Assembly (NCBI GenBank): GCA_025617745.1
Contig: CM046871.1
Coordinates: forward strand, 35,622,722 to 35,686,721
Source: Heliocidaris erythrogramma
Taxonomy: Eukaryota > Echinodermata > Echinoidea > Camarodonta > Echinometridae
Reading direction: 5' to 3'
Length of the DNA stretch: 64,000 bases
Shown: positions 61,101 to 64,000 of the stretch, in pieces
Numbering within the stretch: the first letter of the stretch is position 1
How the letters are laid out: each line of letters starts with the position of its first letter
Notes under the pieces: generated by a model
What the model saw: only the letters and a program-made list of their open reading frames with translations
The model's database searches: none
What the model was told of the DNA's origin: nothing
Made by a program: the position numbers and the translations under genes

Positions 61101-64000
61101 TTCTTGTCTTTCCATACCTTTAACCTCCCGAGTGCAACGGTAGATTCGGCCAGCATACGTATCGCCCAAGGGGTAGGTCCAATGACAGCTCGACACACAT
61201 TTAGGAGTGACACCAGAGTGAAGGCCTGGATTACAGAGATTGTAAATTTAAATAATTAGTTTAAAATCTGTGAATTGCCCAAACTTCTCATTTTTCAGGT
61301 TTTGAATATATTTTAGGTAATAGATAAAGACGTGACTCCATAGAAAAGGCTCAAGAATATTGTACCCCTCCCCTAAAATACTGCCCCCAAATTGTCTAAA
61401 TATTAATTTAATGCAGAAAATTTTGCATATTTACATTACATCTGGTTTACATCTTTGATGAAAGATATTCTGGAACATAAAATCTGAACCACAAAACGCA
61501 TTTTGTGTTCTCGATTAGCTGCTTCACTTCCTTGCAAATATAATTCATCAAAAGGTGTCTTAAGAATGCATATTTTCCTTATTCTATGGTGGTGGTGGTG
61601 GTGGTGGGGGGGATGGTGGATACCATTAAAGACCCTTCCAGCTCCATTCCTTGCATGTCGCACCCCCCCCCCACTCCCCCAGTCATGACAAAACAATCGC
61701 CACCCCTGGCAATAACTTTTGTTACGTTACCTGTGAAGGAAAGGAGTAAATGAAAGGTGAAAATAGCGAATAAACAGTGTATTAAAGCGCCCTTTCTTTC
61801 TCTGTGGATGGCAAAAAATAATATAACATTTCTTACCTCAGCGGCAGAGAGTGAATTGCCCCATTGATATGTGTATGATGATGGAGAGGACAGAAGCAAG
61901 ACTTGGAACGATCGGAACAATTGAAAGGCTAAAACTCTGCAAGATACCCGCTTTGGCTAAGTACTTTTTTTCACGTCCGCGTATACCTGGGGAGCGTTTC
62001 ATGAAAGGAAGTTGTCGGATATTTTATTCGACAACTGTTATAAGCTACTGAAATCCTTGCATCTGATTGGCTGAGAGCAAATTTGTCGGATAAAATATCT
62101 GACAAGTCCTTTCATGAAACGCCCCCCAGAAGACATGCATGCAGAGGTAAGAAAACGAAATTATGTGTAATCATTTGGGAAAGAAATCATAATCCAGGAT
62201 ACAGAAAACTTTCATCGGTTAGGGGTAATCGAACACGTCCTCAATACAGGACATAACATTGGATGGGATAATGTCCCCCAACTTATGTATGTACCACATG
62301 AATGTGTATTTTGTCGTAATTTTGGTTTAAAATACAGGTACATCATTTTGCTCATTTATTACTTTGTACATTTATATTGAAAAATTGGAAATAAATGTAT
62401 TGAAATTATTGAAATCATTGTCTTTGAAAGCAACTACTGGTCAAGAAAGGTGAAAGAGTCTATTTGGATAAAGAGGATTAATCCTATACTGAACAGGGAC
62501 TGGGGTTATCTATTGTCACCTATCTTCGGTACAGTGATCGCAAGACAGCAGACAACAACTAGAAACAGTGCGACTGATCACTTGGCTTAAGAAAGTCCAC
62601 AGGACTGGAAGAAAGCTTGCTTACAAAATTTAAGGTTGGTAGAAGTTTAAACAACAATTGTATAATATCTTCTCTTGGCTACTATCTAGCTCTAAAACAC
62701 AAGTTTATTCGAAATTCCTAAATAAGAGACGTTACAAAATTTTAAATGTACCTCCAATTTTCCAAACTCCCAAATAATGCACTTCAAATATCTAAAACCC
62801 TTAACATTAGTGATTTTTTAAAAGTGTTATTTTGAAGCGCCTAATAATCATTTAAGTTTCAATTCCGATTCGGAAACATTTATCAAATCTAAATTTACTT
62901 TAATACCATCACCAACAAAACAATCAACACATACCTCCTATTGCCTTAGAGAAGGGTTTCTCCCAGGCATACATCTTAATGAGTTTGATAAAAGTCAGAA
63001 GCTCGTTCATCTTTTGGACCCGGACATCGATGACCTTGATACATTTCATTCTGATTTTGGAAATGGTCTTTCCAGCAATGGCCTGCAGAATAAAGCAGAA
63101 AAGGGAAATAACAAAATGGAGAGGGTTGAATAAATGATAAAACATTTTTTTTTTTTTTTTTTTTGTGGGGGGGGGGGGGGCACTACTGTATGACCGAAGT
63201 TAGAGGTTTACTCAAAAAGTTGTGAATGTACGAGCAATTGTCGCCGGGGCATGTGTTTTAGAACCGTGTGTAAATGACATGGTCTAACTAACATTGCAAC
63301 ACAAAGGCAGGTTTGTCAACTTTTGGAAAAGGTAGACCCGTATTTTTTTGGTCTTGCCAGCTTGTCATAAAGTCGCTCAGTGGGGGGGGGGGGGGGGGGG
63401 TCCAGTTTCCTCCATAATTCTCTGACAAGCAAAACAAAAAGAAAAAGAAAAAAAAATCATTCTAAGAGGGGGAGCACAATCGACAAAAGGGCGGATCCTC
63501 TATGGTCAAAATGCATACCTTTCTTCCAAAGGAGGGGGGGGGGGGGCACGGGCCGGAAGTGCCCCCCTGGATCCGCCAATGCTCTCAAGTATATAATTAT
63601 TTCTACCATCTTCTGCAATAAGACACCTTTGATCCCAAACTGGCCCTACAATCAAGCCAGTATGCAGATACAATTTACCCATGAGCAGATAAAGATAATT
63701 TGTACCAGATTGCAAAAAAAAAAATCCATTCATCCTTAACCAGAAGCTAGGTCTAAGTCAGTGTAACTGTCCGAGTTTCAACCGGGCGTCGAGTTTAAAT
63801 TTCAGTAGAATACGAGCAACTGGGACAAAGAGGGTCACTGGATTGAAGTCTAAGGACCTACCTGGAGAGGCACAAAGAGTACGAACGTCGCTAGAGTTCC
63901 AATCAACGCTCCGGTGCCGACGATGAATTGTGTTGCGATGAGGGTTGATATGAGTAAAACCGTAGATGACACTAGGAAGTTTCCTATGATACATACATCG
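46165..64000 (-). CDS. ABCC5-like (MRP5) ABC exporter, 22 exons, 5' end beyond window
   Basis: A plasma-membrane ABCC exporter; human ABCC5 moves cyclic nucleotides and organic anions. Exons in transcript order: 63862-64000 (partial), 62935-63082, 61837-61986, 61118-61225, 60544-60745, 59318-59478, 58742-59011, 57902-58105, 57327-57514, 56776-56846, 55738-55928, 54595-54729, 53804-53933, 52885-53167, 52196-52382, 51681-51770, 50030-50219, 49302-49461, 48380-48458, 47893-48006, 46691-46855, 46165-46272. About 1157 codons are present; roughly 270 N-terminal ones are missing. NBD1 has [14 protein letters not shown] and a Walker B with Asp for the catalytic Glu ([10 protein letters not shown]). 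NBD2 has GRTGSG/KSS split by an intron, the ABCC5-type signature FSVGERQ and [13 protein letters not shown]2 has [10 protein letters not shown] and [16 protein letters not shown]. The exon at 61837-61986 has a one-base frameshift (see findings). A Lys-rich linker precedes NBD1, as in ABCC5. Confidence 0.93.
46909..47120 (+). repeat. tRNA-derived SINE, body and 3' part
   Basis: Contains CCTTTGGCAACACATTAATC, GCCACACTCAACCCACG, and an end near GTTATATAAGAACTGAG. Same family as 13612-13850. Located in the ABCC5-like intron before the NBD2 Walker B exon. Confidence 0.6.
47140..47490 (-). repeat. Poly-C rich dispersed repeat, opposite orientation
   Basis: Contains C runs of 10 or more, CCCACTGAGCGACTTTT, and GGTCCCGGTACGCCACCGG at the right end. 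It is the reverse of the GGCGGATCC-type G-rich repeats at 23028 and 63295. Confidence 0.6.
48890..49170. repeat. (GAT)n microsatellite
   Basis: About 280 bp of GAT/GAC/GAA triplets in an ABCC5-like intron, about 130 bp from the exon at 49302. Met- and Asp-rich open frames here are shadows of it. Confidence 0.95.
49612..49680. repeat. G-rich scrap of a dispersed repeat
   Basis: AAGCGGAGCCG followed by a G run and GGGACATGGCCCCCTG. A short fragment of the poly-G repeats. Confidence 0.4.
49880..50012 (-). repeat. tRNA-like SINE fragment
   Basis: The minus strand has an A-box-like end (TAGCTCAGTGGTAGAGCAG) and a degraded B-box region. It ends close to the donor of the NBD2 Walker A exon (50030). 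Confidence 0.55.
50258..50399. mobile_element. MITE, GGGGAGCGTTTCATC family, copy 5
   Basis: Both ends are complete: CTGGGGAGCGTTTCATCAAG and its mirror CTTGATGAAACGCTCCCCAG. The core is in the reverse sense. It begins 39 nt upstream of the acceptor of the exon at 50219 in the ABCC5-like gene. Confidence 0.92.
51391..51663. mobile_element. TTAA-flanked foldback element, 273 bp
   Basis: TTAAAGGGAAAGTTCAC at the left is mirrored by GTGGACTTTCCCTTTAA at the right, and AAAGTTTGAGCAAA by TTTGCTCAAACTTT. It is a shorter relative of the element at 20267. Its end lies 15 nt beyond the donor of the exon at 51681. Confidence 0.85.
52662..52796. mobile_element. Short MITE with CAGTGGCGGATCCA ends
   Basis: CAGTGGCGGATCCATCC is mirrored by TCCTGGATCCGCCACTG, flanked by GATTA on both sides. 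The interior is mostly T runs. It shows that the GGCGGATCC repeats in the window are DNA elements with inverted ends. Confidence 0.75.
53265..53450 (-). repeat. tRNA-derived SINE
   Basis: Contains CCAGGTACCCATTGCACCTG, a B-box (GGTTCAATCCTCG on the minus strand), and TTGTCCAAGGATTTA. Located in the ABCC5-like intron between 53167 and 53804. Confidence 0.6.
53993..54141. mobile_element. Foldback MITE, GCCCCATCTTATAAAACGTTGC ends
   Basis: GCCCCATCTTATAAAACGTT and its mirror CACTTTGTAAGATAGGGCTC enclose paired GCGATTGATTC / GGGTCAATCGC words. It is in an ABCC5-like intron. Confidence 0.8.
54300..54570. repeat. Irregular minisatellite, TTCGGAATTACGAAC units
   Basis: Words of the type TCGGAATTATGAACC followed by TTTCAT recur about every 30-45 bp. 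Units vary in length, so the array is old. Confidence 0.55.
55519..55600 (+). repeat. End fragment of the SINE foldback at 59660
   Basis: ATACGATCTATAACACTGGG followed by AGTAAAAGCCTAAAAAT matches the outer arm of the palindrome at 59660-60104. It extends into TTCCTCCCATCAAGCTTCTT, which is seen only on the far left of that palindrome. Confidence 0.75.
55965..56320. repeat. 89-bp tandem repeat, four units
   Basis: Unit boundaries (CAGATATTGCTAAATAGGGG) fall at 55965, 56054, 56143 and 56232, an exact 89-bp period, with a diverged fifth start at 56321. Units are nearly identical. The array begins 37 nt upstream of the acceptor for the exon at 55928 of the ABCC5-like gene. Confidence 0.95.
56470..56646. 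mobile_element. TA-flanked MITE with CAGTCAAACCTGC end
   Basis: Left TAGTGTGAAACCTGTCTTTA and right AAAGCAGGTTTGACTGTA are inverted. The interior has GACCGCACAGGTGAGAC and TTATAGACAGGTGGCTGCT words. A half copy is at 1525. Confidence 0.65.
58425..58612. repeat. Inverted repeat with repeated GTTCGACTTA words
   Basis: AACTTTGCATAAGTCGAAT at the left pairs with TTCGACTAATGCGACTT-like sequence at the right, with three TTCGACTTAG-type words between. Probably an old MITE. Confidence 0.45.
59660..60104. mobile_element. Palindromic pair of tRNA-derived SINEs
   Basis: Arms of about 212 bp (59660-59871 and 59893-60104) are inverted around a 21-nt centre and almost identical. Each arm carries a 72-nt tRNA-like unit (59754-59825 minus, and about 59935-60006 plus). 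Each unit has a 7-bp acceptor stem GAACCAG/CTGGTTC, an A-box-like TAGCCTGGTGG, a 5-bp anticodon stem with loop CCGACAA, and a B-box GGTTCGAATCC. U33 is replaced by C, arguing against a working tRNA. The two units point away from each other. Confidence 0.85.
60355..60494. mobile_element. MITE, GGGGAGCGTTTCATC family, copy 6
   Basis: Ends CTGGGGAGCATTTCATCAAG and CTTGATGAAACACTCCCCTG, forward core. It lies 50 bp from the donor side of the linker exon at 60544-60745. Confidence 0.85.
60856..61090. repeat. (ATT)n/(ACT)n microsatellite
   Basis: About 235 bp of ACT then ATT/ATC triplets in an ABCC5-like intron, ending about 25 bp from the exon at 61118. Confidence 0.95.
61837..61986 (-). other. 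ABCC5-like exon with MITE-derived acceptor and a frameshift
   Basis: The exon starts at 61986, one base outside the MITE at 61987-62129. The AG acceptor is the reverse complement of the MITE's first two bases. Reading gives [17 protein letters not shown] through IIIHISMG, matching ABCC TMD1. After the four-base run at 61869-61872 the family sequence (NSLSAAE, then the donor) continues only in another frame. The next exon (AFTLVSLLN) needs phase 0, which one base fewer in that run would give. Confidence 0.8.
61987..62129. mobile_element. MITE, GGGGAGCGTTTCATC family, copy 7
   Basis: Ends CTGGGGAGCGTTTCATGAAAG and TTTCATGAAACGCCCCCCAG with a reverse core (GAAATCCTTGCATCTGATTGG). It differs from the others in its subterminal TCGGATATTTTATTCGAC. 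It abuts an ABCC5-like exon. Confidence 0.9.
62420..62666 (+). mobile_element. Penelope-like retroelement 3' fragment, copy B
   Basis: Matches copy A at 43223-43465. The open stretch [20 protein letters not shown] continues without the TAG of copy A, through [10 protein letters not shown] to a TAA at the position where copy A has TGA, which marks the ancestral end of the ORF. The hairpin is disrupted in this copy. It lies in an ABCC5-like intron. Confidence 0.65.
63295..63590 (+). repeat. Poly-G rich dispersed repeat
   Basis: Shares AAAGGCAGGTTTGTCAACTT, AAAGTCGCTCAGTGG, CCTCCATAATTC and G runs with the copy at 23028-23360, ending CCCCCTGGATCCGCCA. Located in the first visible ABCC5-like intron. 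Confidence 0.75.

Follow-up and report, generated by a model that had tools for sequence, protein, structure and literature searches.

In the sea urchin Heliocidaris erythrogramma, the 3′ end of one intron of an ABCC5-like gene appears to have been rewritten by a miniature inverted-repeat transposable element (MITE). The case lies in a window of 64,000 nucleotides (C19:35622722-35686721 of the 1.06-Gb, 26-contig genome that was searched; positions below are those of the window), in which an exon begins at the very base that adjoins the MITE. We consider it probable (about 0.8) that a nonautonomous PIF/Harbinger-type element with the signature of the NuwaI group inserted in the CAG of the ancestral 3′ splice site and duplicated this CAG, which continued as the working acceptor. 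The initial annotation suggested that the element's own AG had replaced the acceptor of the host; duplication is the simpler event. The features concerned are listed here, with splice junctions marked by a slash and W standing for A or T.

62935..63083, minus strand: preceding ABCC5-like exon, with donor GGAG/GTATGT and an end in phase 1
61987..62934, minus strand: intron of 948 nt, of which the last 143 nt are the MITE and two CWG copies
62127..62129, minus strand: intron-side CWG copy, CTG on this strand; its middle base differs from that of the exon-side copy
61990..62126, no strand assigned: MITE proper, 137 bp (GGGAGCG...CGCCCCC); near-identical copies agree inside it and diverge just outside
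61990-62009 and 62107-62126: inverted-repeat ends of the MITE proper
61987..61989, minus strand: exon-side CWG copy, CAG on this strand; putative 3′ splice site of the intron, judged from copy flanks and homology
61837..61986, minus strand: ABCC5-like exon following the phase-1 donor; it is 150 nt long in the assembly, where the paralogs predict 149
61859..61862, minus strand (CCCC on the plus strand): GGGG, one G longer than the run in the paralogs, which moves the frame onto a TGA just short of the exon end

On the minus strand, the intron closes at 61987 with ...GCTCCCCAG, and the exon opens at 61986 with GT ATA CGC GGA CGT, read as I R G R. When the donor at 62935 is joined to 61986, the product reads unbroken across the junction and aligns without gaps to solved ABCC5 (MRP5) chains; the best is 8wi4_A (query residues 5-92, E = 5.6e-22), and six ABCC5 chains lead the ranking (E = 5.6e-22 to 7.1e-22), followed by ABCC2 at 7.1e-12. 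Against Pfam ABC_membrane, the joined exons reach 26.2 bits, just under the cutoff of 28. The exon ends GCTGAG/GTAAGA, and the following exon opens GCC TTC ACT. In comparison with the paralog L009, the two exons are constrained (dN = 0.11 and dS = 0.99 over 270 nt). The exon start and phase that had been proposed for the base next to the MITE thus agree with the ABCC5 match and, as described below, with seven of eight paralogous regions. The accompanying claim that no other in-phase acceptor is near holds upstream, where all five in-phase AGs within 400 nt would introduce stop codons, and fails inside the exon, where in-phase AGs exist at +30 and +36; their use would cost the gap-free ABCC5 match 10 and 12 residues, respectively. 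Of the acceptors found up to 400 nt upstream and at the exon start, the MITE-edge AG is therefore the only one that keeps the frame open and loses no matched residue.

To place the intron in the history of the gene family, eight regions with paralogs were fetched, and phases were read by eye from the sequence. The second exon was seen in seven of the eight regions (L016 has the first exon only), and all seven have the same phase-1 intron, which closes with a canonical AG at the base homologous to that of the window and has no MITE at the acceptor; this makes the intron old, with an end still at the ancestral position. Two of the regions, L011 and L012, give identical matches. The exon opens with GTATACGAT in L010 and with GTATACGCG in the window; both begin GTATACG. 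An origin of the intron itself from a transposon, as in Introners, was rejected because the intron is old, its position and phase being common to these seven regions without the MITE. ABCC5-like paralogs are scattered along C19 at 7.96, 15.90, 15.96, 21.03, 28.37, 28.46, 31.82, and 32.37 Mb, with weaker matches on C1, C5, and C17; the stretches fetched at 31.82 and 32.37 Mb are near-identical.

The inverted repeat at 61987-62129 is real, with 23-nt arms that are 96% complementary. When all 143 bases were used as a genome query, 40 of 1,143 first-look candidates were scored, among them the window's own copy, and all 40 had 99 to 100% identity, so the element is more than a chance arrangement. 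Many of these alignments ended two bases early at one side, which indicates that the true edge lies inside the apparent terminal CTGGGG/CCCCAG. A second query restricted to 61990-62126 avoided bias from the flanks, and 40 of its 684 candidates were scored. By both searches the element is a MITE: short, noncoding, a uniform 137-bp unit, and present in many near-identical copies. Its inverted repeats, which begin with GGG (GGGAGCG...CGCCCCC), are those expected of NuwaI. A 30-base piece of the element had no match among bacterial and archaeal genomes, and Rfam at gathering scores found nothing over 61800-63100.

The flanks were compared in 39 copies from the core query (L040 was dropped as a duplicate of L041, whereas L075 and L093, which have a common right flank, were both retained), with one base of slippage allowed in the terminal G/C run. 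CWG stands on both sides in 37 of these 39 near-identical copies, although the query excluded those bases; the exceptions are L073 and L077. Among the 37, the flank pairs are CAG/CAG in 14, CTG/CTG in 12, CAG/CTG in 6, and CTG/CAG in 5, and the two CWG copies have the same middle base in 26 (P = 0.010, one-sided test against a proportion of one half). The query-biased set of 40, with no slippage allowed, gave CWG on both sides in 35. After CWG, G and then T are the commonest next bases (43/80 and 44/80 ends, respectively, duplicates included). The flanks of single copies at first gave no obvious duplication; only young near-identical copies revealed it to be CWG, which resembles part of the inverted repeat. 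Because copies differ exactly at the AG bases and follow the CWG rule, we read the acceptor CAG as a copy of the host target. Copies with unequal flanks still have at most two differences from the window's core.

Empty sites point the same way. Of 42 matches to a query made of the joined flanks of the L040 site, six loci were extracted, namely two filled sites and L098-L101. Together with L020 and another stretch of L047, L098-L101 are empty relatives of the L040/L047 site. All six displayed have a single CTG, match L040 over ∼25 bases on the left side of the target and >80 on the right, and read GAGTT-CTG-GT, and the filled sites read GAGTT-CTG-(element)-CAG or CTG-GT. At L040, CTG in the empty state thus corresponds to CTG and CAG in the filled one. 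The 3-bp CWG target-site duplication of NuwaI-type elements is therefore present, with 11 of 37 copies having unequal middle bases that the rule does not explain. This frequency among near-identical insertions (copies in L037-L095) is far above the divergence of the elements and suggests mismatched joining at insertion. Possibly, CWG ends brought along from the donor site are joined to the new site despite a mismatch; L040 fits such joining, by which an element end could sometimes gain an AG. For the related element mPing, staggered 5′ cuts at the duplication, together with acceptance of several middle bases, have been proposed (PMC4561436).

The two edges of the family also differ from copy to copy in what they could offer to splicing. 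The initial annotation held that any copy in any orientation can supply an acceptor; outward CAG is found at both ends in 5 of 37 copies, at one end in 26, and at neither end in 6. Its view that the MITE end serves as the 3′ splice site stands for the exon start and phase, which lie at the edge, whereas the AG itself is best read as the target-site copy. The replacement of the host acceptor by an AG of the element does not agree with copies that vary exactly at this AG, with the CWG that flanks 37 of 39 copies on either side, and with the single CWG of the empty relatives.

From these data, the following course of events can be put forward. The empty site would have read ...CATGTCTT-CWG/GTATACGCGG on the minus strand, and insertion would have yielded upstream flank-CWG-element-CAG-exon, with three bases duplicated. 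One CAG would have remained fused to the exon and continued as the acceptor, while GCTCCC, the C-rich terminus of the inverted repeat, and the CTTCCTTTC preceding it would have come to occupy the former position of the pyrimidine tract. The CAG at 61987-61989 is best read as the target-site copy of the host's CAG, to which the element adds the C-rich tract in front; on the sequence, this CAG was probably the acceptor before the insertion, and the transcript is probably spliced here. With 1,717 CWG sites in the window, an assumed 20 to 40 acceptors of which an assumed 65% are CAG, and 7 to 10 insertions, one or more exact acceptor hits in the window have a probability of 0.05 to 0.14. A chance of 5 to 14% under CWG targeting means that no special attraction to splice sites is needed for this case.

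Several observations weigh against an insertion that duplicated a working acceptor. The two CWG copies at the window site are unequal (CTG and CAG). Acceptors were scored with a matrix from 15 homology-supported acceptors (16 were sought, and one was not located), which is crude and small and includes the near-duplicates L014 and L015. In favor of the MITE-edge acceptor, its score of 4.6 falls within the leave-one-out range of the 15 acceptors (2.8 to 11.9). Against it, of the 56 AGs in the intron and exon, two intronic ones (at -731 and -76) score higher and a third (at -447) equals it. For the reconstructed empty acceptor, this small matrix gives -1.9, under all 15 local acceptors; perhaps the element improved a weak acceptor, or perhaps too few sites went into the matrix. 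A weak empty acceptor would also suit an element that brings its own AG and takes over from an acceptor that had been lost or lay upstream, and L040, where the empty relatives have CTG and the element's right flank is CAG, indicates that an end can gain an AG absent from the target. We nevertheless regard such a takeover as improbable: the AG bases vary among otherwise 99% identical copies and obey the CWG target rule, and the exon starts, to the base, at the ancestral position, which would be unexpected of a random takeover.

Two further points against the duplicated acceptor concern the folding of the RNA and the frame of the exon. The fold of the element with short flanks (201 nt) is far more stable than those of shuffled sequences (z = -8.1), and in the predicted, very stable hairpin the AG pairs in the basal stem with the intron-side CWG copy. 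Such pairing could hide the AG or hinder splicing, or it could help by looping out; the hairpin may even be extruded as a loop, with the old branch region on one side and the regenerated CAG on the other. The extra G, if real, would end the frame shortly before the exon end; it is either a homopolymer or assembly error or a real frameshift lesion. The loss of a CT pair was rejected as the cause of the frameshift, since the paralogs show GGC-AA. Together, the shift in the G run close to the exon end and the pairing of the AG in a strong hairpin could mean that this haplotype carries a dead or mis-spliced exon, with the insertion and the extra G marking a decaying gene and the splice match a leftover. 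We think this unlikely: the shift is a single homopolymer base, a common type of assembly error; dN is well below dS over the two exons, though most of this divergence presumably predates the insertion; and the acceptor is still phase correct. Thus, we favor the duplication of the ancestral CAG.

A second copy of the family lies in the same gene.

50258..50399, no strand assigned: second copy (subfamily B); use of its edge as an acceptor would shift the frame

This copy ends 38 nt before the acceptor CTACAG/AACCTC of the exon for the second nucleotide-binding domain (last intron base, 50220). It had been suggested that all copies of the family be scanned for exons at their edges, and none was recognized beyond the window's case and this nearby exon. 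The scan covered 75 outward CAG ends (window, L017-L036, and L037-L075, with duplicates and ≤3 mismatches) and the ends of the 40-copy set; for the former, frames were considered if they had at least 30 residues or lay in the window, and for the latter if they had at least 32. Exons were sought only through open frames and donor-like motifs and not through homology, so the result is no proof of absence. One frame, in L038/L039, resembles by its motif a LINE reverse transcriptase. An autonomous partner would be expected to carry a DDE transposase and a Myb/SANT protein between GGGAGCGTTTCATGAAA ends; in fetched loci of at least 3 kb, end pairs spaced wider than one element turned out to belong to separate short copies.

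Tandem or internally duplicated copies of the family occur at 32829-33064 in the window, at 5740-6037 in L020 (14 bp between the copies), and at 7262-7553 in L028. The window also contains open frames that, by eye, resemble a reverse transcriptase (31428-32147, plus strand) and a Tc1-like transposase (42017-42886, minus strand).

That transposons can supply splice sites is already known; what deserves attention is that the target rule of a Harbinger element matches the acceptor consensus. Within the introns of human and mouse, insertions near exons are depleted, which has been taken to indicate harm (PMC3088655). In the window case, the target rule of the transposon family coincides with the splice-acceptor consensus, so that an insertion would repair the very signal that it hits. 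Where CWG-targeting Harbinger elements abound in a genome, this predicts a countable asymmetry in which hits on acceptors are tolerated and hits on donors are not. More speculatively, targeting of CWG followed by GT, combined with C-rich outward ends, might make such transposons chemically suited to acceptors: landing on CAG/G would duplicate CAG, keep the exon intact, and bring a new pyrimidine tract, so that harmless landings might recur. Given the high copy number of the family in this genome, the 3′ ends of many introns would then have been rewritten and donor hits purged; we hold this wider picture only tentatively.

No case of a transposon duplication restoring an acceptor was found among the open-access papers listed, as judged by titles and the openings of abstracts. 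The closest known elements are those of the NuwaI group in the PHIS (PIF/Harbinger-ISL2EU-Spy) superfamily, which are described as having CWG duplications and inverted repeats starting with GGG and are reported in 16 animal genomes, namely 12 bony fish and one each of beetle, crustacean, mollusc, and anthozoan (PMC4482050); the MITE here has both the CWG duplication and the GGG repeats. Zebrafish Harbinger3_DR has a palindromic target around CCWGG, quoted as AAACACCWGGTCTTT (PMC3016246). Compared by this published target rather than by element sequence, the MITE is similar in that G and then T are commonest after CWG, and it differs in its weaker preference outside CWG. In Introners and other transposon-born introns, a transposon end and duplicated target bases provide a splice site (PMC9860276), as they would here; unlike in those cases, the intron is old and common to paralogs, only its 3′ end has been rewritten, and the left edge of the MITE (CWG-GGG) lacks a GT 5′ splice site. 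Finally, mPing and other Tourist-like MITEs belong to the same superfamily and make 3-bp duplications with an exchangeable middle base; they duplicate TTA/TAA (PMC4561436), whereas the MITE in the ABCC5-like gene duplicates CWG.

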